Origin: Bacteroidales bacterium
GTDB lineage: Bacteria > Bacteroidota > Bacteroidia > Bacteroidales > UBA12481
Length of the DNA: 33,059 nt
Assembly (NCBI GenBank): GCA_023145515.1
Contig: JAGLDP010000028.1
Span: 1 to 33,059, forward strand
Direction of reading: 5' to 3'
Numbering within the stretch: position 1 is the first letter of the stretch; the number at the start of each line of letters is the position of its first letter. This document shows positions 4,834 to 32,368 of this stretch, piece by piece. The position numbers and the translations under genes are program-made. The notes beneath the pieces were generated by a model. It had not been told where the DNA came from. It saw only the letters and a list, made by a program, of their open reading frames with translations, and did no database searches.

Positions 4834-4861
4834 TTGTGAAGATAATAATTACTTACCTTTG
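4834..4861 (+). promoter_or_regulatory. Possible Bacteroidota-type promoter before the transglutaminase gene
   Basis: TACCTTTG at 4854-4861 matches the TAnnTTTG -7 box. A TTG lies at 4834-4836 with a 17-bp spacer, a little short for the class. The box ends 3 nt before the ATG at 4865, so a transcript starting at the usual distance would be nearly leaderless. The divergent lipoprotein gene starts at 4832, so both promoters must fit into about 30 bp. Confidence 0.4.
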
Positions 4862-4864
4862 TTT

Positions 4865-6733
4865 ATGATCACATTGCGCAAACTATTATTTCTGTTATTA
4901 GCTCTGTCTATCACCTTTTCTTCTTTTGCACAAATTGGAAACGTAAGTAATACATTATCTGTTGGAGAAGACCATCAACCAACCGGAATTTGCTGGGATG
5001 GCTCGCATTTATGGATGATCGATTATAGCGAAGATATGATCTGTAAAATAGATCCATCAACAGCAGAAGTATTACTCTCATTTCCAGCGCCTGATACATA
5101 TTCAACTGGTCTGGCCTGGGATGGCACCAATTTGTGGTGTAGTGGAAACCGAACTAATAAGATTTACCAACTGGATGATTCCGGACAAACAATAAAAACT
5201 ATAAATGTTAGCGGCACACCAAGAGGAATCACTTTTATTCAAGGATCACTTTGGTATGCCGACAGTCAAAAAAAGCATATATACAAGCTCAACTCTGATA
5301 CCGGTGAATATATAGACACTATACCTGCACCTGGTGGCACATCACGCGGACTGGCTTATGACGGAAAGTATCTGTGGTGCGCCGACAATTCTTTGAAGGA
5401 GATCTATAAAATTGATCTCGATTATCAAAAAATTATCATGATTATTCCCTCTCCAAATGATTCTCCCTACGGAATATGCTGGGATGGAAGCGATTTATGG
5501 ATTGCAGGAAATAGCTCCAAAACTTTGAAAAAAATGCATACTACCGGTACTAATCCAGTAGTATATCTTGATTCCCTCAATGCTCATCTGCAGTATAAGC
5601 TGACAATAAGAAATGTTGGAAGCACCTTTATGAACCTCAGAACCTGGATCAGTCAGCCATATTCATCACTCAAACAAAACCTGGATTCTGATATTGTCTT
5701 TTCTCCTTATCCTCTAAGCTTTACAAACGATCAATGGGATCAAAGATTCGCATACTACAACAATACTATTAATCCGGGCGACAGCATCCTGTTTAACATG
5801 AATATGGATGCTACTACGTATGACATGCGTTACTATATCTTTCCTGATGAAGTTGGTACTATCAGAGACGTTTCAGCTTCTATCCAAAGCAGTTATTTGG
5901 CAGATGGCGATTATTATGATATTCACAATCAAATCGTTAAAGATGCTGTTACTGAAGCAATTGGAACAGAAACAAACATGTATTGGAAAGCGAGAAAAAT
6001 TCATGATTATATCATTAATGAAATCCACTACGTATTGGATGGAAGATGGGATAAGGCACCCCAAATTCTCACCCAGGGACATGGTTCCTGCTCTGAATAC
6101 TCTTATCTCTTCATTGCTATGTGCAGGGCTGCTCATATTCCGGCCCGATATGAAGCCGGAGCTTATAACGGAGGACAACTACCCTATATTGATGAGGTTT
6201 TTCACCGATGGTCGCAGATCTATCTACCACCGTATGGGTGGATTCATGTTGATGCAACCTGGGATGATCGTGAGTATCCTGCTAATCAATACCGATACTT
6301 TGGTGCTACTTCAAAAAGACTATTCGCCACCACTCTGGGTGGTGGAGGATCCAATAAAATCTCATGGACATACAACTCAGCCAACAGCCAAACAGGTGGC
6401 ATAAGAGAACGAAGCAGACAATATACCTGGAGTCAGATCGGCTCTTCAAGCATTGATCCTCAGCCAAATACTAATGTAGTTCTGCACCAGAACTATCCCA
6501 ATCCTTTTAATGATCAAACAACAATTTCATTCAATCTGGCAAAACACTCAAAAGTGATTGTAAATATTATTAACCTTCAGGGTATTGTAGTAAAAAAACT
6601 CCTGTCAGAACCTTTGAGTCCCGGAGAACATCTGCTTTTATGGAACCGCACAAATATTGCCCCCGGGGCATACCTGATTCAACTGCTTACTGAAGAAGAA
6701 ATTCATACCACATCTTGTATCATTTCTCGCTAA
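4865..6733 (+). CDS. T9SS-secreted transglutaminase-like protein with N-terminal beta-propeller-type repeats
   Basis: This 622-residue protein has a signal peptide (hydrophobic residues about 5-20, ending SSFAQ). Residues about 30-230 contain five imperfect repeats of about 40 residues built on G(I/L)xWDGxxLW...IYKID, resembling NHL/PQQ-type propeller blades. The centre carries a transglutaminase-like domain. Its triad is C409 in GHGSCSEYS, H447 in HRWSQIYLP and D463 in HVDATWDD, so it looks catalytically intact. The last 75 or so residues (NYPNPFNDQTTISF... through GAYLIQL) are a type A T9SS sorting domain, implying export across the outer membrane and surface attachment or release. Such domains can act as proteases, peptide N-glycanase-like enzymes or crosslinkers; which applies is unknown. 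I preferred the ATG at 4865 over a TTG at 4859. Confidence 0.85.
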   Translation: MITLRKLLFLLLALSITFSSFAQIGNVSNTLSVGEDHQPTGICWDGSHLWMIDYSEDMICKIDPSTAEVLLSFPAPDTYSTGLAWDGTNLWCSGNRTNKIYQLDDSGQTIKTINVSGTPRGITFIQGSLWYADSQKKHIYKLNSDTGEYIDTIPAPGGTSRGLAYDGKYLWCADNSLKEIYKIDLDYQKIIMIIPSPNDSPYGICWDGSDLWIAGNSSKTLKKMHTTGTNPVVYLDSLNAHLQYKLTIRNVGSTFMNLRTWISQPYSSLKQNLDSDIVFSPYPLSFTNDQWDQRFAYYNNTINPGDSILFNMNMDATTYDMRYYIFPDEVGTIRDVSASIQSSYLADGDYYDIHNQIVKDAVTEAIGTETNMYWKARKIHDYIINEIHYVLDGRWDKAPQILTQGHGSCSEYSYLFIAMCRAAHIPARYEAGAYNGGQLPYIDEVFHRWSQIYLPPYGWIHVDATWDDREYPANQYRYFGATSKRLFATTLGGGGSNKISWTYNSANSQTGGIRERSRQYTWSQIGSSSIDPQPNTNVVLHQNYPNPFNDQTTISFNLAKHSKVIVNIINLQGIVVKKLLSEPLSPGEHLLLWNRTNIAPGAYLIQLLTEEEIHTTSCIISR

Positions 6734-6754
6734 CCAATAGTTAAAAACCTCACC

Positions 6755-8761
6755 ATGAAAAATCTGCTTATCCTTTCAGCTATCAGCCTGACTCTTTTGA
6801 TCAGTTGTGATAATACTCCGATGGTAACAAGCATTGACTTACCAGACACAACTCAAACTAGTATTAATTACATAGGTAATATATCACCTCTGATATCCAC
6901 CCCATTCATCAAGCTCCCCGTTGGATCAATCAAGCCCGGAGGATGGGTAAAGAAACAGCTGGAGCTACAAGCGGATGGATATTTCGGACATCTGGGAGAA
7001 ATTAGCAAGTTCTTAATCAAGGAAAATAATTCATGGCTTAGCACAGATGGATCTGGTGACCATGGATGGGAGGAATTACCATACTGGTTAAAAGGGTACA
7101 GCAACCTTGCGTATTTACTAGAACGAGAAGATATGCTTGAAGAAACTCAGCTATGGATTGAGGCCGTACTAAATAGTCAGAAAGAAGATGGCTGGTTCGG
7201 TCCGGATGAAGATCGTACAGGTGCTGCCACAAACCTAAAGGGAAGAGTCGATCTATGGCCAAATATGGTAATGCTTTTTATTCTGCAGGACTATTACTCT
7301 TATTCCAAAGACGAGCGAGTTATTACATTGATGACAAAGTACTTAAATTACCTCCAAACTATTCCTGAAGACCAATTTCTTGTAGGATACTGGCCTGCTA
7401 ATCGTGGCGGCGACTTGCTTTATTCTGTGTATTGGCTTTATAACAGAACAGCAGATGAAACACTACTCGAACTGGCCAATAAAGTTCATGAGAAATCAGT
7501 TAACTGGACAGATGGCATCCCAAACTGGCATAATGTAAATATGTCACAAAGCTTTGGTGAGCCTACGACATACTACATGCAGACAAAAGATGATAAACAC
7601 CTTGTGGCATCTGATCGAAATTATGAAGAGATCAGGAAGCTGTACGGACAAGTACCAGGGGGGATGTTTGCCGGTGATGAGAATTGTCGCGAGGGCTATA
7701 CCGATCCACGTCAGGCCGTTGAAACCTGCGGAATGGTTGAGATGATGCTATCCACAGAAATTCTGTACACGATTACAGGCGACCCTATATGGGCTGATCG
7801 CTGTGAGGATGTAGCGTTTAATACTTATCCGGCTGCACTTACAGCCGACATGAAAGCGCTAAGATATCTGCAATCTCCAAACATGGTTCAATCAGATAAA
7901 GTACCTAAAAATCCCGGTATTCAGAATGGCGGACCAATGTTCCACATGGATCCGAACAGGCATCGCTGTTGCCAGCACAATCAAGGACACGGATGGCCCT
8001 ATTATGCTGAACATTTATGGTTGGCCACTGCAGATAATGGCTTGGTTGCAGCCTTATATTCTGAGAACACTGTAACTGCATTTGTAGGTAAAGGAATTGA
8101 AGTGATTATTGAAGAATCTACTCATTACCCATTTGACGAAGTAGTTGAGTTTGTTGTAAATCCTGATGATCCGGTAAAATTCCCTCTGTATCTGAGAATC
8201 CCAACATGGTGCAAAAACCCTTTGGTCAGCGTCAACGGAGAAGAATTCGATTATGCTGATTTATCCTCTTATATCCGTATTGAAAAAATATGGACAAATG
8301 GTGATGTCATCCGACTGGCTCTGCCGATGAATCTGAGTATACGTGAGTGGACTGAAAATAAGAATAGTGTTTCGGTAGATTATGGTCCTTTGTCCTTTTC
8401 ATTGAAGATCGAGGAAAACTATGTTCAGGAAGGTGGCACAGAAAAATGGCCAGCATGGGGAATCTATCCTGCTAGTCCTTGGAATTATGGCCTGGTACTA
8501 TCAGATAATGATCCGGTCAAGACATTTGAAGTCATCAAAAAAGGATATCCAGAATCAGACATGCCCTTCACGCATACAGGTAACCCCATAGAAATCAGAA
8601 CAAAAGGCAAACTGATCCCTGAATGGATTATGGATGAAAAAAATCTGGTAAACGAACTTCCAATGAGCCCTGTTGTAAGTAATGAACCAGCAGTGGAAAT
8701 CACATTAATACCAATGGGAGCAGCCAGACTAAGAATTTCAAGTTTTCCGCAAATAAAATAA
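6755..8761 (+). CDS. GH127/DUF1680-family lipoprotein (beta-L-arabinofuranosidase-like)
   Basis: This 668-residue lipoprotein (LLISC, lipid Cys at residue 18) has the DUF1680 fold: an alpha/alpha-barrel in the first two thirds and a beta-sandwich C-terminus (for example LYLRIPTWCKNP). In characterised GH127 enzymes a cysteine is the nucleophile and a Zn site is made by one Glu and three Cys. The equivalents here appear to be E323 and C325 (ETCGM) and C405-C406 (RHRCCQHN), so the catalytic set is conserved. The bases after CC (QHNQGHG) differ from the CCPPN of the classical enzymes and suggest a sub-branch whose substrate may not be arabinofuranoside. It starts 21 bp after the transglutaminase stop, on the same strand. 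The family call is strong; the substrate is inference. Confidence 0.85.
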   Translation: MKNLLILSAISLTLLISCDNTPMVTSIDLPDTTQTSINYIGNISPLISTPFIKLPVGSIKPGGWVKKQLELQADGYFGHLGEISKFLIKENNSWLSTDGSGDHGWEELPYWLKGYSNLAYLLEREDMLEETQLWIEAVLNSQKEDGWFGPDEDRTGAATNLKGRVDLWPNMVMLFILQDYYSYSKDERVITLMTKYLNYLQTIPEDQFLVGYWPANRGGDLLYSVYWLYNRTADETLLELANKVHEKSVNWTDGIPNWHNVNMSQSFGEPTTYYMQTKDDKHLVASDRNYEEIRKLYGQVPGGMFAGDENCREGYTDPRQAVETCGMVEMMLSTEILYTITGDPIWADRCEDVAFNTYPAALTADMKALRYLQSPNMVQSDKVPKNPGIQNGGPMFHMDPNRHRCCQHNQGHGWPYYAEHLWLATADNGLVAALYSENTVTAFVGKGIEVIIEESTHYPFDEVVEFVVNPDDPVKFPLYLRIPTWCKNPLVSVNGEEFDYADLSSYIRIEKIWTNGDVIRLALPMNLSIREWTENKNSVSVDYGPLSFSLKIEENYVQEGGTEKWPAWGIYPASPWNYGLVLSDNDPVKTFEVIKKGYPESDMPFTHTGNPIEIRTKGKLIPEWIMDEKNLVNELPMSPVVSNEPAVEITLIPMGAARLRISSFPQIK

Positions 8762-13948: not shown

Positions 13949-16534
13949 ATGAAATCATCAAAAGTCTTTCGTCTCTTGCTGGTCTTTTTGCTTATCACTG
14001 CATACGGTATTAAAGACAATACTTCACAGGCTCAAAACACTATCACTTCGCCAGAACAATTCTTCGGCTTTCAAATGGGAGAAGACAGAAAGCTTGCCCG
14101 TTGGGATAAAATTGTTGAATACTTTTATAAGATCGAAAAAGAAAGTAACAGACTGAAAGTGATCAACATGGGTCCTTCAGCAGAAGGCCACCCATTTCTA
14201 GTCTTGATTATTTCATCCCCTGAGAACCTGTCAAATCTTGATCGTCTGCAAATGATCAATAAAACAATTTCTGACCCGAGGGGTGTAGATGAAGAAACTA
14301 TTGACAGGTACATACAGGAAGGAAAAGCTGTAATCTTTCAGTCAATGAGCTTACATGCTTCTGAGGTAGGAGGAACTCAAATGACTCCTGAACTTACCTA
14401 TGATCTATTATCAAGAAATGATACAGAAACAAAACGTATACTGGATAATGTTCTGTACTTCATGATTCCATGTATTAATCCTGACGGACAAATAATGATA
14501 ACCGATTGGTATCGTGAAACTGTTGGAACTGAATATGAAGGACTAAGCATGCCTTACCTGTACCACAAGTATTGTGGCCATGATAATAACAGAGATGGAG
14601 ATTATTTGAATCTGGTAGAATCAAAATACACCGCTAAAATGATGTTTGTTGACTGGCCTCCTCAGGCTTATATCGATCACCACCACATGGGTTCATATGG
14701 AGCACGCTTTTATGTTCCTCCATATTGCGATCCTATTCGTCCCTATGCAGATCCTCTGGTATGGAGAGAAATTAGCTGGTATGGTTCTCATATAGCCTAT
14801 AAACTAGAGGAACAAGGATTCCAGGGAGTACTAAATGCTGCGCAATTCGCAGGATGGGGACATTTTGGCTGGCATTGGGTAACACCATTTCATAATATCG
14901 CAGGCATGTTAACTGAATCGGCAGGCGTTCGTTTGGCAAGTCCGGTATACATTCATCCTGAACAACTTAGAGCAAATAGCAGAATGTTCCCTGAATATGA
15001 GGCTCAATCAACTTTTCCAAACCCTTGGCCAGGAGGATGGTGGAGGTTACGAGATATTGTTGAGCAAAAGAAATCATCTGCCTGGTCACTAATAGATTTG
15101 GCAGCAAGAAATAAAGAAACAGTTTTAAAAACAGCCTACCTGAAAGGAAAAAATCAAACACAACGAGGTGCTGAAAGTGATGTGAAGACAGTTATTATTC
15201 CTGCTAATCAGCATGATTACCTTACGTCTGTTAAAATGATTAATACCCTCCTGAGATCCGGTATAGAAATCCAAAAAGCCAATGAAGAGTTTTCTGTTGA
15301 TGGAATGCACTATCAGAAAGACTCATACATCATATCGCTTGCCCAACCCAAAATGGGATTAATACGAAATCTATTGGTTGAAACTCATTATGCCGATAAT
15401 GCCTGGACACGCAAAGAAGATGGTACTCCTATTTATCCTTATGATCTGGCAACTCATAATATGAATGAATTCATGGGGGTTAGGGCTGATGCTTTGGCTA
15501 TTGATGTTAAAGGTGATTTTACTATTCTGAAAAGTCAGGATATAAGAGTTGGTCGATTTGAAGCAGGAGATGAGGGATTTATTATCGATGGACGATTAAA
15601 TAATAGCTTTAAGGCTGTTAACTTACTTGCAGATCAGGGTATTAAAATCAAAAGACTTGATAAGGCTTTTGCATCCTATCATCCGGGAGATTTCATAATT
15701 CCAAAAGCATCAAATGACAAAATTCTGAAAATTGCCAAAGAAACAGGCGTTGACTTTAATGCACTTAATAATCTTCCTGCTGAGGATATTCATAGTGTTA
15801 AGCGCAAACGACTGGCTCTATTTCAACGGTATGATGGGGGTAATATGGATGAAGGATGGACAAGGTTGTGCTTTGAAAATTTCTCTTTCCCCTACCATTC
15901 TTTGATGAGTCAGGAGGTTATTGATGGAGATCTTAATAAGAATTGGGATGTTATTGTTATTCCGGATGATTCTCCTGAAAGGATAAAAGGGATATATTCA
16001 GCAAGTAGCAGAAGAAAACCAGAAAAGTATCCTGAGAAATACAAAAGTGGAATAGGTAAAGAAGGAGTTAAAGAGCTTATAAAATTTGTAAAAAATGGTG
16101 GAACTCTTGTTACACTTGGCTCATCATACAAATTTGTAGCTGAAGAGTTTGGAGTGAAAATTAGAAACATTACAGAAGGCTATAGCTCAACTGAATTGTT
16201 TTGTCCGGGCTCTACTCTTAAAGCTACTTTCGATAATACCAACCCTCTGGCATACGGGATGCCAGATGAAGGATTGATATTACATCGTTCTAGTCCGGCT
16301 TTTGAAATTACTCCAAGCAGAACAAATGCAGATTATAAAACAATAGTCAGATATAAGAATAAAGACATACTGAAAAGTGGATGGCTAATTGGAGAAAAGA
16401 AGATTGCAAAAAAGTCGGCAATGATAACAACAAGTTACGGAAAAGGCCGAATAGTAATAATAGGTTTCAGAACTCAACATCGTAACCAAACTGATGGCAC
16501 ATTTAAGCTGCTTTTTAATACTATTATTGAGTAA
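13949..16534 (+). CDS. Secreted M14-family zinc carboxypeptidase with C-terminal GATase-like domain
   Basis: This is an 861-residue protein with an N-terminal signal peptide (about residues 8-29). The M14 domain covers about 40-400. Zn ligands are H136 and E139 (LHASEVGG, HxxE) and a His in the IDHHHMGS cluster (H244-H246). The likely catalytic Glu is E323 in MLTESAG, and NNRDGDY supplies the usual substrate-binding Arg. The enzyme should release C-terminal residues from peptides, or act on cell-wall peptides, outside the cytoplasm. Residues about 630-860 form a class I glutamine-amidotransferase-like Rossmann domain (LALFQRYDGG, WDVIVIPDD, FVKNGGTLVTLG) without an obvious GATase Cys nucleophile. 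It is probably structural or binding. It converges with the MBL-fold gene, with 4 bp between stops. Confidence 0.88.
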   Translation: MKSSKVFRLLLVFLLITAYGIKDNTSQAQNTITSPEQFFGFQMGEDRKLARWDKIVEYFYKIEKESNRLKVINMGPSAEGHPFLVLIISSPENLSNLDRLQMINKTISDPRGVDEETIDRYIQEGKAVIFQSMSLHASEVGGTQMTPELTYDLLSRNDTETKRILDNVLYFMIPCINPDGQIMITDWYRETVGTEYEGLSMPYLYHKYCGHDNNRDGDYLNLVESKYTAKMMFVDWPPQAYIDHHHMGSYGARFYVPPYCDPIRPYADPLVWREISWYGSHIAYKLEEQGFQGVLNAAQFAGWGHFGWHWVTPFHNIAGMLTESAGVRLASPVYIHPEQLRANSRMFPEYEAQSTFPNPWPGGWWRLRDIVEQKKSSAWSLIDLAARNKETVLKTAYLKGKNQTQRGAESDVKTVIIPANQHDYLTSVKMINTLLRSGIEIQKANEEFSVDGMHYQKDSYIISLAQPKMGLIRNLLVETHYADNAWTRKEDGTPIYPYDLATHNMNEFMGVRADALAIDVKGDFTILKSQDIRVGRFEAGDEGFIIDGRLNNSFKAVNLLADQGIKIKRLDKAFASYHPGDFIIPKASNDKILKIAKETGVDFNALNNLPAEDIHSVKRKRLALFQRYDGGNMDEGWTRLCFENFSFPYHSLMSQEVIDGDLNKNWDVIVIPDDSPERIKGIYSASSRRKPEKYPEKYKSGIGKEGVKELIKFVKNGGTLVTLGSSYKFVAEEFGVKIRNITEGYSSTELFCPGSTLKATFDNTNPLAYGMPDEGLILHRSSPAFEITPSRTNADYKTIVRYKNKDILKSGWLIGEKKIAKKSAMITTSYGKGRIVIIGFRTQHRNQTDGTFKLLFNTIIE

Positions 16535-19733: not shown

Positions 19734-19750
19734 TAGCATAGAATTTGATT

Positions 19751-20182
19751 ATGAGCAATACAAGCCAAGTATCAGAACCGATGATAAGCTATAGAACCCT
19801 GGATAATCAGAATGCCTTTCTTCTGATTGAAGCCATTAAAAATGGCATTGATTATAGCTTTTTTGAAAAACTGGCAAAGTCAATCCCCTTTAGTATGCGT
19901 GAATGGTCTTCTTTTTTACATTTATCTGAGCGATCGATGCAACGATATAAGAAGGAAAAACTGAGTTTCGGTCAAGTTAGTTCCGAACGTATTGTTGAAA
20001 TCACTATGCTGTACAAGTATGGAGTAGAAGTATTCGGTAATACAGAATTCTTCAACACCTGGTTACATGACAGAAATTTGGCATTTGGCAAAAAAATCCC
20101 AAAAAACCTACTTGACAGCACTTTTGGCATTAGCCTTGTAAAAGACGAACTAACACGTATTGAACACGGTATTCTGGCATGA
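19751..20182 (+). CDS. Xre/MbcA/ParS-type antitoxin of a RES toxin-antitoxin pair
   Basis: This is a 143-residue protein. Residues about 25-80 form an Xre-like helix-turn-helix region of the kind seen in TIGR02293 antitoxins (FSMREWSSFLHLSERSMQRY). The C-terminal part (VEVFGNTEFFNTWLHDRNLAFGKKIP) is the DUF2384 toxin-binding domain, with the usual G-K-x-P segment. The antitoxin neutralises the RES toxin by binding at its active site and represses its own operon; this is established for the family. Antitoxin first and toxin second, with a 4-nt ATGA overlap at 20179-20182, is the standard order. I used the ATG at 19751 rather than the TTG at 19745. Confidence 0.92.
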   Translation: MSNTSQVSEPMISYRTLDNQNAFLLIEAIKNGIDYSFFEKLAKSIPFSMREWSSFLHLSERSMQRYKKEKLSFGQVSSERIVEITMLYKYGVEVFGNTEFFNTWLHDRNLAFGKKIPKNLLDSTFGISLVKDELTRIEHGILA

Positions 20183-20640
20183 TTGTTTTCAGACTGGCAA
20201 ACAGAAAATTCAGCCATGATCTCTCCGGAAAGGGAGCAGAAATCACAGGAGGGAGGTGGAATAGTAAAGGTGTTGGAGTGGTTTACACCAGTGAATCAAG
20301 AGCCCTTTGTACTGCAGAAATTGCTGTACACACTCAACTTGGAATCATTCCGAAAGATTATGAATTGGTACACATCCTGATTCCTGATTCGATACAGTTT
20401 ATGGAGATAAGTCCGGATGAACTGCCTTTGCCCTGGAATTCAATCCCTTACAATAGCATTACCCAAAACATAGGCAATCATTTTATCGATACAAATGAAT
20501 ACCCTGTACTAAAAGTGCCATCAGCAGTGATTCCTGGCGATTTCAATTATCTGATCAATCCCGCCCATCCGGATTCCAGGGGAATTGAGATAACAAAAAC
20601 TGAGGCTTTCAGCTTTGATGAGAGATTGTTTAAGAGATAA
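20179..20640 (+). CDS. RES-domain toxin (NAD+-degrading type)
   Basis: This 153-residue protein spans the whole RES domain. The three residues that name the family appear to be R26 (GGRWNSKG), E47 (TAEIAVH) and S115 (VPSAVIPGDFNYLINPAHPD), with Y37 also in the expected place. Characterised RES toxins (MbcT and Res of Pseudomonas) break down NAD+ and halt growth. All key residues are present and the length is normal, so the toxin should be active. It overlaps the antitoxin gene by 4 nt. Confidence 0.93.
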   Translation: MIVFRLANRKFSHDLSGKGAEITGGRWNSKGVGVVYTSESRALCTAEIAVHTQLGIIPKDYELVHILIPDSIQFMEISPDELPLPWNSIPYNSITQNIGNHFIDTNEYPVLKVPSAVIPGDFNYLINPAHPDSRGIEITKTEAFSFDERLFKR

Positions 20641-26013: not shown

Positions 26014-26991
26014 ATGAAGACACCTGGATTTATAACATTCATACTCTTGGGAATGATGGTGTTATTGCTTGCAAATTGCGTAAAAAATGGCCCTGTTGAT
26101 AATCAAGTCGATGAAATTGAGCCTAATGAAGTTATACTAGATGTGATACCTGACAGTTTGCCTCTGGCAGACACTACATCTATTTCAAAAACACAAACAG
26201 AAACCTTCGTTGAACAAGAGATAGATTCAAACCCAATTGTTAAAACAGTTAGAATTATTGAGGAGTATGAAGAGACTATTCTGACAATCAGAGATGACCT
26301 GGAAATGCTACCATGTTCATCTATTCCAACTTATGGACTTAGTTATAGGTATGCATTTAAGCATGAACGTCGTTTGGCTGCCAATAAAATTCTGATCTGT
26401 CAGGTTGAACAAATCAGCAAAAACAAGATTAGAATAACAGTGCTGGGCTCCATTTCTCCATATTACCTTCCTGTGGAGAATAATTTCTCAAAACTTGATT
26501 ACCCATGGGGTGGCAGCATTGAATTTTCAAAACAAAATTGGCCAGTGAGCTTTGGAGTTGGTTATAATGCAATGAAAGCTCAATCAAATTCACAAGTTTA
26601 TCATCTGCAAACGAATAATATTTATTTGTTCGGCAAATACACTCCTCTGAAGCTGTTTAATGATCAACTTGAATTCTTTTTATCTGCAGGAGTTAATTCC
26701 TGGGCTTCACAGATTAGTAACGTCAAATATCCTGAACATGCAGGGTATTATCCAATAGAAACAAACAGAGGATATAGCTATTACGGCGGAGCAGGTACTC
26801 TTTTTGAATTTCACAAATTCCTAATCGGAATACAATACCAGCTTTATGGAACACCTCTTGTTGTTTTTGGTGCTGATTTCAATGAACCAGATACGCAAGA
26901 AGGACTTAAAGATTATACACCTTCAACACAGTACAAATTGTACGCGGGGTCAAATCAATTACAGATCATAGTCGGATTTAGAATTAACTAA
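26014..26991 (+). CDS. Lipoprotein of unknown function with barrel-like C-terminal half
   Basis: This 325-residue lipoprotein has a signal ending LLLANC (lipid Cys at about residue 22). An acidic, Thr/Glu-rich linker (about 25-95) follows. The C-terminal 180 residues alternate aromatic and hydrophobic residues (SIEFSKQNWPVSFGVGY, LEFFLSAGVNSW, FLIGIQYQLYG) and end with LQIIVGFRIN, the pattern of a small outer-membrane-type beta-barrel. That reading is inference; the family is not recognised. The ATG at 26014 places the signal correctly; 34 upstream codons in the longer frame come from repeat and promoter DNA. The next gene follows after 11 bp. A weak TATCTTGT box at 25964 may be its promoter. 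Confidence 0.75.
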   Translation: MKTPGFITFILLGMMVLLLANCVKNGPVDNQVDEIEPNEVILDVIPDSLPLADTTSISKTQTETFVEQEIDSNPIVKTVRIIEEYEETILTIRDDLEMLPCSSIPTYGLSYRYAFKHERRLAANKILICQVEQISKNKIRITVLGSISPYYLPVENNFSKLDYPWGGSIEFSKQNWPVSFGVGYNAMKAQSNSQVYHLQTNNIYLFGKYTPLKLFNDQLEFFLSAGVNSWASQISNVKYPEHAGYYPIETNRGYSYYGGAGTLFEFHKFLIGIQYQLYGTPLVVFGADFNEPDTQEGLKDYTPSTQYKLYAGSNQLQIIVGFRIN

Positions 26992-27002
26992 TACAAAGAA
27001 AA

Positions 27003-28838
27003 ATGACAATCTGGCGAATCATACAAAAACTTGCACTACTAAGCATATTAACGCTGATAATAAGCGGATGTCTTAAAGATGAGTTCAAAGAACCTCCTGA
27101 TCCTTTTGAGATCCAAAGGTTGGAAGAAGGTTTTGTTGGCTTTCAGTTTGGTAATGGTGCTGATAGTTTTAAAATCCTGACAAACCATGAGAATGTAACG
27201 ATTACTGATAAAGGAAATATCAGGATTCGTGGTACACTCTTTGCTGATAGAGACACACTTGCTCCTGTAAGACTTAGTCAGGGAGATTTTATTCTCCTGA
27301 AAAATATGGGATCAGGTCAGGAAACCGCAAATATAGATGGTATTGGTGATGTACCCATTAGCCGGGGATCGTTCAAAATGATGAACTCAAGCGGAAGCGG
27401 ATATGAAGAGTTTATTGGTTTTGGTGGCTATTCTGAGTTCACTCTCCCTCAGGTTGGGATTATGCAGGAACTATCAATTGACCAACCAGACGGAACCAAT
27501 ATTTACTTCGGACAAGGAAGTGATCTGCCTGATGATTTTCCGGTTAACCCTAACCGAACATACTTCTATTTCTATTACGAGGATCTGGTTGATTTTGCTT
27601 TGGGTAAGTCACCTTTCATGATAGACAGGATGGCTCTTGACCCCGATGACCCATACTTCTATGTGCATGCCAGCGCAATGTCTATTCCCGGACTGAGTAG
27701 TCTTGAAGATGGAGGTTTTGCAGCATCTGTTCAAGGTAATATTCCCTTTAGCCCCCAGGAAGCACTCTCATTTGGTGATGTTGAAAGCTTTGACTACGGA
27801 AACCTCCTGTTACAAGGAAGTGTAAACCTGGAAACAACATTCGGAGTACCACTGGTAGTTGCAGATGCCACTGCTGTTATCGGATTTGGCAACATGACAG
27901 ATGGAGTAAATTTCTTCAATGGCGATGAAGTCCCATTTATGATGGGATTACAAGGAGGGTTCGTATTGGCTCTTCATGACCTGGCTGAATTTACTCTTGG
28001 TGAGGCTGCCGTTTCTCTGGAAGTTTATGGTTACGATGATTTTGAGTTTCGTTGGGCCGGATGGTTCAGTAACGAAATGCGTGTTATGGAGCCTATTGAG
28101 CAACTTCTGGGGCTAGACACCGAAGGAACAGCCTGGGATTTTATTCAGCCACCAGGAGTGGTTAATGAACTAAAAACCTGGGGAACTATTGGCACTGACC
28201 CGGATAATTGGTCTTTTGGAATTCATACAACCTCAAAGCTTAAGATTTCCAACGTCATGACAATTGACCTGGGTGAAGTCAGGTTTGAATTGGCACAAGA
28301 TGAGCTTGACTTCTTTTGTAGAATGAGGGTTGGATTCTTTGGCCACATGAGTTATGGAGGATATATACACAATGATGGAGCATTTAAGATTAGTGCATCT
28401 GCAGATCAAAGCATCAAGTTTGACTTATCAATATTAGTCGTAAAAGTTGGCTATGATGTTGGATTTTACCTTCAGGGTTATTCAAATGGAGACTGGAAAT
28501 TTTGTGTTAACGGAAAAGCCTACTTGGATATTAGCTTTGACACATCGTTCTTCGAAGCTCATCCTGAAATCCTTGAAGATAATCCTGATCTCCGTGAACT
28601 ATACGAGCAGAATGGTTCTCTAAAGGGAGAAATTTCAGCCAGTTTAAGTGCCTGTCTGAATAGTAGTGGGAAATTCAAAGGAAAAATCAGCTTTTCGTTC
28701 TGGAAAGTCGGATATAGTTATAATTATTCATTCTCACTTAATAGCTCAGAGGCCTCTCCTCTATATAACTTCAAAGAAGTGCCTCTTGAAGAAGTGCCTC
28801 TTGAAAACAGATTTGGATCAAATGAAATTGTGAGATAG
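27003..28838 (+). CDS. Large lipoprotein of unknown function
   Basis: This 611-residue protein starts with a lipoprotein signal (LTLIISGC, lipid Cys at 23). It is Gly- and aromatic-rich throughout with repeated beta-strand-like segments and no recognised catalytic motif. A hydrophobic Gly-rich middle (GVPLVVADATAVIGFGNM; MMGLQGGFVLALHDL) precedes more soluble sequence. The C-terminal 150 residues contain repeated FKISA, IKFDLSI and YNYSFSLN strands, and a duplicated PLEEVPLE near the very end. It is the middle gene of a three-lipoprotein cluster: 11 bp after the previous gene and 1 nt before the next. Possible roles include a surface structural or binding protein; none is supported directly. 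Confidence 0.8.
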   Translation: MTIWRIIQKLALLSILTLIISGCLKDEFKEPPDPFEIQRLEEGFVGFQFGNGADSFKILTNHENVTITDKGNIRIRGTLFADRDTLAPVRLSQGDFILLKNMGSGQETANIDGIGDVPISRGSFKMMNSSGSGYEEFIGFGGYSEFTLPQVGIMQELSIDQPDGTNIYFGQGSDLPDDFPVNPNRTYFYFYYEDLVDFALGKSPFMIDRMALDPDDPYFYVHASAMSIPGLSSLEDGGFAASVQGNIPFSPQEALSFGDVESFDYGNLLLQGSVNLETTFGVPLVVADATAVIGFGNMTDGVNFFNGDEVPFMMGLQGGFVLALHDLAEFTLGEAAVSLEVYGYDDFEFRWAGWFSNEMRVMEPIEQLLGLDTEGTAWDFIQPPGVVNELKTWGTIGTDPDNWSFGIHTTSKLKISNVMTIDLGEVRFELAQDELDFFCRMRVGFFGHMSYGGYIHNDGAFKISASADQSIKFDLSILVVKVGYDVGFYLQGYSNGDWKFCVNGKAYLDISFDTSFFEAHPEILEDNPDLRELYEQNGSLKGEISASLSACLNSSGKFKGKISFSFWKVGYSYNYSFSLNSSEASPLYNFKEVPLEEVPLENRFGSNEIVR

Positions 28839-28839
28839 T

Positions 28840-30087
28840 ATGAAAATCAAAATAGTTTTTACCATCGTATTCATAGGGCTATTCTTAATCAGTAATTCCT
28901 GCAAAAAGGAAGAAATTGATTACACTTATGAAATTCTGGATCTTCAATGGGCCGATAATGGATTAGACTTTGATCAGGATGGCTACTTAACCAGCAGAAC
29001 AATCAAATTCTATGTTTCACTATTAGAAGATGTTCAAAGAGATATCGTTATAAGAGTCTATTATAAGCTTAGCGAAACCAAAGAATACATATTTTACAGC
29101 TCAACTGATAAACCGGGAATTGTTGGTGGCGAAGATATGCCCGTGTTCCTGGAGTTAGGCTTGAATCCTGAACTTAGTGAAGGGATGTATAGCTTTCTGA
29201 TAGAAGTCTATGAAAAGGATAGCGATCGTGCAGAAGCATCTGTAGAAATTGAAAGTGCACCATTTGAAAGATTAGTGGGCGACCAGAATTATGACTTAAT
29301 TGTCTGGTGGACTAATCATTACGACTATGACTATGATGGTTTTCCGAGATCGGCTGATCTGAATCTTGATATTAATATAACTAATAATGTAGACAAAGAA
29401 ATTCGTGTTGAAGTCTTGTATAAGAATGCTATTACCGATGACAAATACACCTCATATTTCAAAAGTGAGTATTATCAGATTACTGGTGAGCACAAAGATT
29501 CATTAACAATACCAACAGGGATATATCCGGATACACTAGGACACGGAGCTTACAATTTCAAGGTGATTGTTACCGAGAAACGCGGTTTTTCCCCAGTTCT
29601 TATTTTTGATTCTGAATTGTCAAACGATCTCAAACTTATACCGTTCGAAACAAACCTGGATGACGGATATGAGTATAAACTCAATACTGCTAACACAGAA
29701 TGGAAGTATATTATAGATAATGACGAGGATGGATACTCCCAGTCAAGAATTCTTCGTCTGGATATGGACATTGACAAGTTAGAAACCGTTGATGTTCTGG
29801 CCAAGATCTTTAGAAAAGGCGTTGATGATGAAGATTATCTTGTAATGGATTCTACTGACATCTTTTCTATTTATGGATCGGGTATTAATGATACTATTTG
29901 GGTCCCTTTCAGTAACTTAATAATTGAAGACACCTTAAAAATGGCTCATGGAGAGTGGAATTTTATGCTTGTCATTTTTGAAGTTTTACCTGATGGTTTA
30001 GAACCTGAAATGAGGTTTGCCACGGATAGTATTGACGGAAATTTCTTCATGAATCAAAAATTCGAACTAAGTAGCGAAGATATATAG
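28840..30087 (+). CDS. Lipoprotein with three DxDxDG-containing domains, function unknown
   Basis: This 415-residue lipoprotein (FLISNSC, lipid Cys at 21) is made of three diverged copies of a domain of about 120 residues. Each begins with a calcium-loop-like motif followed by an R-x-L/I-x-(F/L) strand: DFDQDGYLTSRTIKF at 44-58, DYDYDGFPRSADLNL at 162-176, and DNDEDGYSQSRILRL at 293-307. Later in each copy there is a (V/I)xYK strand and a Y/W-F segment (GMYSFLIEVYE, GAYNFKVIVTE, GEWNFMLVIFE). The internal triplication is direct sequence evidence; calcium binding is inferred. The ATG follows the previous stop by 1 nt, so the gene is co-translated with it. Confidence 0.82.
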   Translation: MKIKIVFTIVFIGLFLISNSCKKEEIDYTYEILDLQWADNGLDFDQDGYLTSRTIKFYVSLLEDVQRDIVIRVYYKLSETKEYIFYSSTDKPGIVGGEDMPVFLELGLNPELSEGMYSFLIEVYEKDSDRAEASVEIESAPFERLVGDQNYDLIVWWTNHYDYDYDGFPRSADLNLDINITNNVDKEIRVEVLYKNAITDDKYTSYFKSEYYQITGEHKDSLTIPTGIYPDTLGHGAYNFKVIVTEKRGFSPVLIFDSELSNDLKLIPFETNLDDGYEYKLNTANTEWKYIIDNDEDGYSQSRILRLDMDIDKLETVDVLAKIFRKGVDDEDYLVMDSTDIFSIYGSGINDTIWVPFSNLIIEDTLKMAHGEWNFMLVIFEVLPDGLEPEMRFATDSIDGNFFMNQKFELSSEDI

Positions 30088-30130: not shown

Positions 30131-32368
30131 ATGCGTATACTATTGCTATTACTGAGTATTCAGTTGTCATTGCTCAGTGCTCAGAAAGTAAAAGGTCAGT
30201 CTGTTAAAGAACCTTTTGATTATGTGAATCCTTTTATTGGCACAATTAACTACGGAGCAACAAACCCCGGAGCTGTTAGTCCGATGGGAATGCTATCAAT
30301 AGTCCCTTTTAATGTCACTAAAGCTGAGGGCAATGTTTATAATATGGATGAGGGATGGTGCTCTACCCCATACTGGCATAACAATAAGATAATTACCGGG
30401 TTTTCTCATGTTAACTTCAGCTCCGTTGGCTGTCCTGACTTGGGCAGCATTCTACTAATGCCAACAAGCGGAGAGCTAGAAGTGAATCACAAGCTTTACG
30501 GATCTGAATATTTTGAGGAAGCTGCCAGTCCGGGCTATTATCGTACTTTCCTGAAAAAACATGGGGTAATAGCTGAAATGACAGCAAGCACAAGAACAGG
30601 AATCTCACATTATCAGTTCCCGGCTGGTGAGTCTCATATCCTTGTAAATCTTGGTCTGGGACTAACAAATGAAACCGGAGCTTTTGTGAAGAGGGTATCC
30701 GAAACAGAAATTGAGGGCTTTAAAATGCTCGGAACCTTTTGTTATAATCCTCAGGAAGTATTCCCGGTTTACTTCGTGATAAGAGTCTCAAAGAAACCAG
30801 AGCAAATGAGATACTGGAAGTTCCACAAGAAGCTGATAGGTGATAAAACCTCTTGGTCTTCTACAGACGGAACCTATAAAATTTATGAGAAATACTGGAA
30901 AGAACTGGCGGGAGATGACATAGGAGTAGTATTCAGCTATAACACGCAGGCAAATGAATCTATACAGGTTCAAATAGGAATCTCCTACGTAAGCATTGAA
31001 AACGCAAGAGAGAATCTTAATGCTGAACAACAAGGATTTCAATTTGCGAAAATCAGAGAAGCAGCGCGTCAGGAATGGAGTAGCTACCTGAATACAATCA
31101 GAGTAGAAGGAGGAACAGAAGATGACAAGGAAATGTTCTACACAGCATTTTACCACACCCTCCTCCATCCAAACATCTTCAACGACGTAAACGGTGAATA
31201 CCCTGCCATGGGAGAAGGTAAAATAGCTCAGAGCTCAGAACTCAGATATACTATGTTTTCTTTGTGGGATACCTACCGCAACCTCCATCCTATGAAATCC
31301 CTCCTCTTTCCTGATCAACAACTTGGAATGGTTAGATCAATGCTGGATATGTTTGACGAAAGTGGAGCCTTACCCAAATGGGAGTTTGCCGGACAAAATT
31401 TCAACGTGATGGAAGGTGACCCGGCTCTGGTAGTTATCAGCGACACTTATCTTCGCGGACTAGATGATTTTGATATTGATCTGGCCTGGAAAGCTATGTA
31501 CCATCATGCTTTTGCTCCGGGAAAAGATAACCTTGTTCGTCGTGATAATGACTTCTATATGAAGCATCATTATATCCCAATCTTGCGTGATCATGACAAT
31601 TCTGTTTCTCAGGCAATTGAGTACTATGCTGCAGATTATGCCTTTTCTGAATTTGCCAAAGCCATTGGTAAAGATCTTGTGGCAAAAAATCTTTACGAAA
31701 GGTCTCTCGGATATAAGAAGTATTTTGATTCTGATTACGGCTTACTTCGTCCTTTACAACCCAATGGAGAATTCTTCGAACCCTTTGATCCGAAAATGGG
31801 TGAAAATTTTGCTCCCAGTCACGGATTTCATGAGGGCAGCTCTTGGAATTACAGCTTTGCCCTACCCCACGATATTCCAGGCATAATTGATCTGATCGGC
31901 AGCGAAAAAGCCTTTGTTAATAGTCTTGAAACATGCTTCAGCGACTCTCTTTTTGATATGACAAATGAACCTGATATGGGCTATCCATGGTATTTTAATT
32001 TTGTTAAAGGAGAAGAATGGCGCACTCAAAAGTATGTAGATTATTGCATCAACAACTGGTTCTCAACAAAACCCGACGGATTAGCTGGCAATGATGATGC
32101 CGGCACTTTATCTACCTGGCTGATGTGTGCCATGATGGGTATCTATCCGGTCACTCCCGGCAATCCAATTTATACCATCAGCACCCCCAGATTCAAAAAG
32201 ATCACCATCAGACTTGATGAGAAATACTATCCAAAAGGGGAGCTGATAATAGAAACCGACAAAGACCCAAGTCAATACAAATACCTGAAAGGCAACAAGT
32301 TCTTCATTAGCCATGAGGAGTTAGTAAATGCTGGCGTTTTGAAGTTGAAACTAAAGAAATCAGAGTAG
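30131..32368 (+). CDS. GH92-family alpha-mannosidase
   Basis: This is a 745-residue protein of usual GH92 length with an N-terminal signal peptide ending at about residue 18-22 (SLLSAQ), so it should act in the periplasm or at the surface. The family signatures are clear: NPFIGT near the start, GFSHVNFSSVGCPDLG, EMTASTRTGISHY, YTMFSLWDTYRNLHP, EGSSWNYSF with a likely acid Glu at E568, and GNDDAGTLSTW at 653-663 with the acidic base residues. GH92 enzymes remove alpha-linked mannose from N-glycans and mannans and need calcium. No lipobox is seen. It lies 43 bp after the lipoprotein cluster on the same strand, perhaps in the same transcript. The signal peptide is written in a heptad-repeat sequence (30151-30185). 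Confidence 0.95.
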   Translation: MRILLLLLSIQLSLLSAQKVKGQSVKEPFDYVNPFIGTINYGATNPGAVSPMGMLSIVPFNVTKAEGNVYNMDEGWCSTPYWHNNKIITGFSHVNFSSVGCPDLGSILLMPTSGELEVNHKLYGSEYFEEAASPGYYRTFLKKHGVIAEMTASTRTGISHYQFPAGESHILVNLGLGLTNETGAFVKRVSETEIEGFKMLGTFCYNPQEVFPVYFVIRVSKKPEQMRYWKFHKKLIGDKTSWSSTDGTYKIYEKYWKELAGDDIGVVFSYNTQANESIQVQIGISYVSIENARENLNAEQQGFQFAKIREAARQEWSSYLNTIRVEGGTEDDKEMFYTAFYHTLLHPNIFNDVNGEYPAMGEGKIAQSSELRYTMFSLWDTYRNLHPMKSLLFPDQQLGMVRSMLDMFDESGALPKWEFAGQNFNVMEGDPALVVISDTYLRGLDDFDIDLAWKAMYHHAFAPGKDNLVRRDNDFYMKHHYIPILRDHDNSVSQAIEYYAADYAFSEFAKAIGKDLVAKNLYERSLGYKKYFDSDYGLLRPLQPNGEFFEPFDPKMGENFAPSHGFHEGSSWNYSFALPHDIPGIIDLIGSEKAFVNSLETCFSDSLFDMTNEPDMGYPWYFNFVKGEEWRTQKYVDYCINNWFSTKPDGLAGNDDAGTLSTWLMCAMMGIYPVTPGNPIYTISTPRFKKITIRLDEKYYPKGELIIETDKDPSQYKYLKGNKFFISHEELVNAGVLKLKLKKSE
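30151..30185. repeat. Heptad repeat in the GH92 signal-peptide coding region
   Basis: Five 7-bp units in register: ACTGAGT, ATTCAGT, TGTCATT, GCTCAGT, GCTCAGA. They encode the hydrophobic core and end of the signal peptide. A second patch with the same unit (GCTCAGA GCTCAGA ACTCAGA) lies at 31226-31246 in the same gene. Confidence 0.5.
31226..31246. repeat. Three-unit heptad repeat in the GH92 catalytic domain
   Basis: GCTCAGA GCTCAGA ACTCAGA, one mismatch over three units, encodes AQSSELR just before the conserved YTMFSLWD motif. Three units alone could arise by chance, but the unit matches that at 30165-30185. Confidence 0.5.

Follow-up and report, generated by a model that had tools for sequence, protein, structure and literature searches.

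The window analysed here is a 33,059-nucleotide stretch of a Bacteroidales bacterium (GenBank assembly GCA_023145515.1, contig JAGLDP010000028.1; contig C135 of genome G000 in our sample, a genome 63% complete), and the subject of this analysis is a set of three adjacent genes (genes 1–3; Table 1) that it carries on the forward strand. The trio is packed with gaps of 11 nt between genes 1 and 2 and 1 nt between genes 2 and 3, and each product begins with a hydrophobic stretch closing on a lipobox-like Cys (LAN-C22, ISG-C23, and SNS-C21). An earlier interpretation made from the sequence alone (hereafter, the sequence-only reading) had described three closely spaced lipoprotein genes with gaps of these sizes, and both the open reading frame (ORF) coordinates and the N termini bear this out for the window. 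Because the three ORFs are kept in order in other genomes, at approximately 26–65% identity, the arrangement is not a product of chance. Upstream and divergent from the trio lies rlmN (RlmN_N and Radical_SAM domains). When scanned for promoters and terminators, the region gave matches at chance level (24 vs 20.8 and 6 vs 5.4, respectively).

Table 1. Coordinates of the gene trio, its sequence features, and the adjoining glycosidase gene in the window
Feature	Positions	Strand	Remarks
Gene 1	26014-26991	+	325 residues counted from an internal ATG; lipobox, ~105-residue linker, C-terminal barrel
Gene 1 putative lipidated Cys22	26077-26079	+	Lipobox LAN-C22; present in the window only
Gene 1 barrel domain	26395-26988	+	Sole part conserved across all 10 homologues
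Gene 2	27003-28838	+	611 residues; lipoprotein rich in beta structure, without a Pfam match
Gene 2 putative lipidated Cys23	27069-27071	+	ISG-C23; following LKDEF fits the surface-export signal (LES) C-X-K-(D/E)2-X
Gene 3	28840-30087	+	415 residues; lipoprotein with Sden1266 (NF038116) domains in triplicate
Gene 3 putative lipidated Cys21	28900-28902	+	SNS-C21; following KKEEI fits LES C-X-K-(D/E)2-X
Sden1266 domain 1	28906-29286	+	DFDQDG loop 28966-28983
Sden1266 domain 2	29284-29667	+	DYDYDG loop 29323-29340
Sden1266 domain 3	29668-30084	+	DNDEDG loop 29716-29733
GH92 glycosidase	30131-32368	+	43 nt downstream of gene 3; TIGR01180, 672.7 bits; outside the conserved module

Products of the three genes

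The first gene had been taken for a small barrel, and its C terminus is indeed, as modelled, an OmpA-like 8-stranded barrel. The fold was read from the model of a homologue at locus L003 (SI037_bin1), whose barrel (residues 460–648) aligned with OmpA over 159 residues at 3.0 Å with a Z score of 17.6, and to which the barrel of the window is 65% identical in sequence. Identity to a second homologue, L004 (AUK297), is 49%, again over the C-terminal ~190 residues. Despite this resemblance to OmpA, none of the nine barrels scanned (0/9) matched any Pfam family at E<=0.1.

The part of gene 1 that precedes the barrel is far more variable. In eight of ten homologues, two SH3b-like repeats take the place of the window's linker, behind a signal peptide and with no lipobox. 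In the L003 and L004 proteins (648 and 589 residues), the repeats are accompanied by a single degenerate copy of the Sden1266 domain (16.7 and 31.7 bits, under the cut-off), and in six distant homologues they lead to the barrel. The homologue from genome G1118 (L059:6550-8205) differs over its N-terminal ~350 residues, in which no SH3b-like repeats are visible by eye and only weak NCBIfam matches were obtained. In the window, gene 1 has neither SH3b-like nor Sden1266 parts and bears the sole lipobox among the ten; the description of three lipoproteins thus holds for the window but not for the family, in which gene 1 has a lipobox in just 1/10 members. When scanned separately, 6 of 16 repeats matched Pfam SH3_3 (best E 8.4e-5), and profile searches of the Protein Data Bank (PDB) returned weak matches to 2kyb, 2kt8, and 2kq8 (E 0.002–0.007). 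We rate the SH3b assignment as moderate.

Gene 2 encodes, as had been proposed, a 611-residue beta-rich protein, and none of its aligned members scanned with Pfam was assigned to a family (0/10). Conservation is seen at its N terminus, which follows the pattern C-x-K-[DE]-x-F-x-[EP]-P-x-D-P-F, with Lys at position +3 and an acidic residue at position +4 each present in 9/10 members. PDB sequence searches returned nothing up to E 1, whether run with the products of window genes 1–3 or with the profiles of gene 2 and the gene 1 barrel. A candidate gene 2 paralogue in the same genome (G000:C162, E 0.0027) was set aside, the match being weak and falling in an unrelated ORF, which by recognition we take to resemble an S46-type peptidase.

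The structure model of gene 2 was poor, and no fold was therefore assigned. Its C-terminal half appears in the model as a succession of 9–16-residue strands, and windows along this half show higher hydrophobic/polar alternation (0.34–0.37) than the gene 1 barrel (0.10–0.15) or gene 3 (0.18–0.20). Moreover, the loose structural matches obtained with Foldseek and VIA-align were outer-membrane barrels. These features are what would be expected if the C-terminal half were a lipid-handling or membrane-inserted beta-sheet, with the trio working at the outer membrane to move or assemble lipids or proteins rather than as a scaffold. However, the matches were not significant (VIA-align root-mean-square deviation 6–15 Å; best Foldseek E 0.015, with no match below 1e-3), and by eye the C terminus of gene 2 does not resemble a barrel strand end. 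In addition, four C-terminal Cys residues occur at similar positions in all seven homologues from outside the class (7/7), suggesting a soluble disulfide-bonded domain; they are not kept in the window. We consider this reading of gene 2 and the trio unlikely.

Gene 3 consists of a known domain. No Pfam match reached the cut-off; however, the NCBIfam model NF038116 (Sden1266_dom, choice-of-anchor H) scored 120.5 bits in three stretches, where its cut-off is 53. The sequence-only reading had recognised none of the three products, which does not hold for gene 3. It had also described the third protein as a triplicated domain with calcium-like loops, and its three repeats each contain DxDxDG (residues 43, 162, and 293) after a conserved Trp. 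These loops are putative calcium-binding sites. The triplication is retained at a distance: five of five distant homologues scanned contain three copies each, at 170–208 bits. The Sden1266 domain in the model of the L003 protein is beta-sandwich-like, and its nearest solved folds are immunoglobulin- or fibronectin type III-like at a Z score of about 7, which is not decisive; the domain profile yielded only weak matches in the PDB, the best being an S-layer protein at E 0.076. Gene 3 thus contains three copies of a domain that some relatives also have within gene 1. Elsewhere, a 743-residue protein (L027:6211-8442, genome G042) combines Sden1266 repeats (four stretches pass, about five counted) with a sorting tail for the type IX secretion system (T9SS).

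Linkage and co-inheritance of the trio

Gene 2 is present in ten of the genomes searched (G000, G536, G538, G867, G806, G997, G842, G1086, G1050, and G1118), three of them in the family of the window and seven in the same phylum but outside its class. Gene 1 lies directly upstream of gene 2 in all ten, with gaps of 7–40 nt. In nine, the contig also carries gene 3 after gene 2, with gaps of -11 to 101 nt. In the tenth genome (G536), gene 2 is at the end of one contig and gene 3 at the end of another. In G538, gene 2 itself is split over two contig ends, each piece retaining its neighbour.

In two samples, genes 1 and 2 also single out the same genomes. A gene 2 profile matched 3 of 80 relatives and, in enlarged form, 4 of 159 genomes in the class of G867; a profile of the gene 1 barrel identified the same three and the same four genomes. 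Each of the two profiles had originally reported four of the 80 relatives. The additional gene 2 match, in G029 (E 5e-4), falls where the sequence is broken by three stops, and the additional barrel match, in G062 (E 0.0016), lies inside, and in the frame of, another ORF that by recognition we take to be MORN-repeat-like and caspase-like; both were discarded as chance. The sequence-only reading had proposed co-occurrence across genomes as a check, and with these chance matches excluded, genes 1 and 2 were not seen apart among the 80 and 159 genomes. Elsewhere, the gene 2 profile matched 2 of 393 genomes of the order (three reported, G029 again dropped) and 7 of 395 of the phylum, the window included; the genome samples used for these searches overlap. 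Searches of 149 and 395 genomes with the single gene 2 sequence recovered the window alone, and the viral contigs searched contained no gene 2 relatives.

Sequence divergence runs broadly in parallel across the trio. The correlation of pairwise identities, calculated from nine genomes, is 0.84 between genes 1 and 2, 0.83 between genes 1 and 3, and 0.95 between genes 2 and 3, although with few deep lineages these values show joint inheritance only loosely. Most groups agree between the trees, in which G867 and G1118 are placed differently. The linkage of the trio and the co-occurrence of genes 1 and 2 provide good support for a functional unit.

Tight operons need not encode complexes, and the three genes might instead be co-transcribed and co-inherited as separate envelope proteins of one regulon that form no stable complex. 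We regard this as rather unlikely, given that the order of the trio is retained between classes at about 26–43% identity although the flanking genes differ.

In six of the ten genomes the trio is followed by a fourth gene; none adjoins it in G1118, G538, G536, or the window. Three of the six fourth genes were scanned, and all three contain the OmpA domain PF00691 (3/3), two of them also with sub-threshold similarity to DUF4398. In the fourth gene of G997 (L050:10270-12261), a barrel-like insertion, judged by eye, separates the helical N-terminal region from the OmpA domain.

Predicted surface export and the proposed assembly

In Capnocytophaga canimorsus, the surface-export signal (LES) is given as C-X-K-(D/E)2-X following the lipidated Cys (PMC5080379). 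Both CLKDEF of gene 2 and CKKEEI of gene 3 fit this signal in the window, and it is partial in most homologues. The products of genes 2 and 3 are accordingly predicted to be surface-exposed, a prediction supported by these N termini. The sequence-only reading had gone further in taking the tight spacing to suggest a surface complex; its functional-unit component is well supported by linkage and co-occurrence, and its surface component by the N termini just described.

The interpretation that we rank first, with about even confidence, is that an envelope module inherited as a unit has genes 1–3 at its core, and that this module is most likely a complex of a beta-barrel with surface lipoproteins that operates without SusC or SusD. 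In such an assembly, the gene 1 barrel would hold the complex in the outer membrane, gene 2 would provide the large central surface subunit, and gene 3 would form a calcium-stiffened surface rod. Tethering of the assembly to peptidoglycan may be provided, in most homologues, by the SH3b-like repeats in gene 1 and by the OmpA-domain fourth protein. We favour a scaffold or adhesive function over nutrient uptake, because no substrate channel is obvious in so small a barrel.

Several points weigh against this interpretation. Physical association of the three proteins and their activity are inferred. The module is also uncommon and scattered, with 2 true matches among 393 genomes of the order. The complete C-X-K-(D/E)2-X occurs in gene 2 of the window only (1/10), being partial elsewhere, and the mean predicted local distance difference test (pLDDT) score of the gene 2 model is 44.3. 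With regard to tethering, SH3_3 falls under the Pfam gathering score in full-length gene 1 homologues, and a profile of the N-terminal part of the fourth gene matched 0 of 80 relatives, a set containing no positive control. Furthermore, because gene 1 of the window lacks SH3b-like repeats and no fourth gene adjoins the trio there, tethering is not supported in this organism.

Possible, but held more tentatively than the envelope module itself, is a stronger version in which the trio is an undescribed surface machine. Here, a non-porin OmpA-like barrel would carry two surface lipoproteins, one of them of undescribed fold, and would be inherited as a unit across classes with exchangeable fronts (SH3b repeats, a Sden1266 domain, an unrelated domain, or a lipid).

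Bacteroidota depend on assemblies of barrels and surface lipoproteins, the best known of which serve nutrient import or outer-membrane assembly. With no TonB transporter, an unclassified core of 550–610 residues, and a barrel front that is swapped between lineages, this conserved module is a defined target for studying how such assemblies are anchored.

Neighbouring genes and relation to known systems

A GH92 gene follows the trio in the window and also adjoins gene 3 in G536, of the same genus. The sequence-only reading had noted a GH92 mannosidase nearby on the same strand, which is correct, and had seen in it a hint of glycan handling. This second part does not extend to the module: GH92 adjoins gene 3 in only 2/10 genomes, both of one genus, and so is best regarded as a genus-level neighbour rather than a component, and glycan handling was rejected as a module feature. 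In the other eight genomes, gene 3 is followed by a convergent M14 peptidase gene (G538), by the fourth gene (six genomes), or by other genes (G1118). Nor did Pfam scans of 24 window ORFs return a SusC or SusD, in line with the sequence-only reading, which had noted the lack of such a pair. The 43-nt spacing in the window and the recurrence in G536 would suit a glycan-handling surface unit acting with the mannosidase; in light of the eight genomes without this adjacency and the missing SusC/SusD, we consider such a unit very improbable.

Several other genes of the window merit mention. An M14 peptidase matched by Pfam (13949-16531) shares 31% identity across 882 alignment columns with the M14-type protein encoded convergently with gene 3 in G538. 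A transglutaminase-like protein with a T9SS tail (4859-8758) adjoins a GH127 glycosidase, and an Xre-type antitoxin and RES-domain toxin pair with overlapping start and stop occupies 19745-20640. Beyond GH92, a protein with weak sortilin/BNR similarity is cut by the contig end.

A literature search, judged by its entries rather than by full texts, found no paper apparently about this gene trio; nevertheless, four known systems invite comparison. Sus-like systems likewise cluster surface lipoproteins with a nearby glycosidase; the trio differs in that the window contains neither a TonB-dependent SusC nor a SusD. The OmpA family shares the fold of the gene 1 barrel and, through the fourth gene of other genomes, the C-terminal domain PF00691. 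Here, however, barrel and OmpA domain are placed on separate genes, and the barrel escapes the Pfam models.

The extended β-barrel assembly machinery (BAM) of Bacteroidota comprises BamG with BamH-K; this machine is essential, and BamG is a FadL homologue with 14 strands (PMC12578637). The trio shares its general plan of an outer-membrane barrel as a platform for surface lipoproteins. The two are set apart by the OmpA-like 8-stranded model of the trio barrel and by the sporadic occurrence of the module.

The fourth comparison is with the choice-of-anchor H proteins (NF038116), of whose domain gene 3 contains three copies, well above the cut-off. Gene 3 differs from these in its N-terminal lipid anchor, where a protein elsewhere in the order (L027) ends in a T9SS tail, and in its place within a fixed gene trio, which gives the uncharacterised Sden1266 domain a constant genetic partner.

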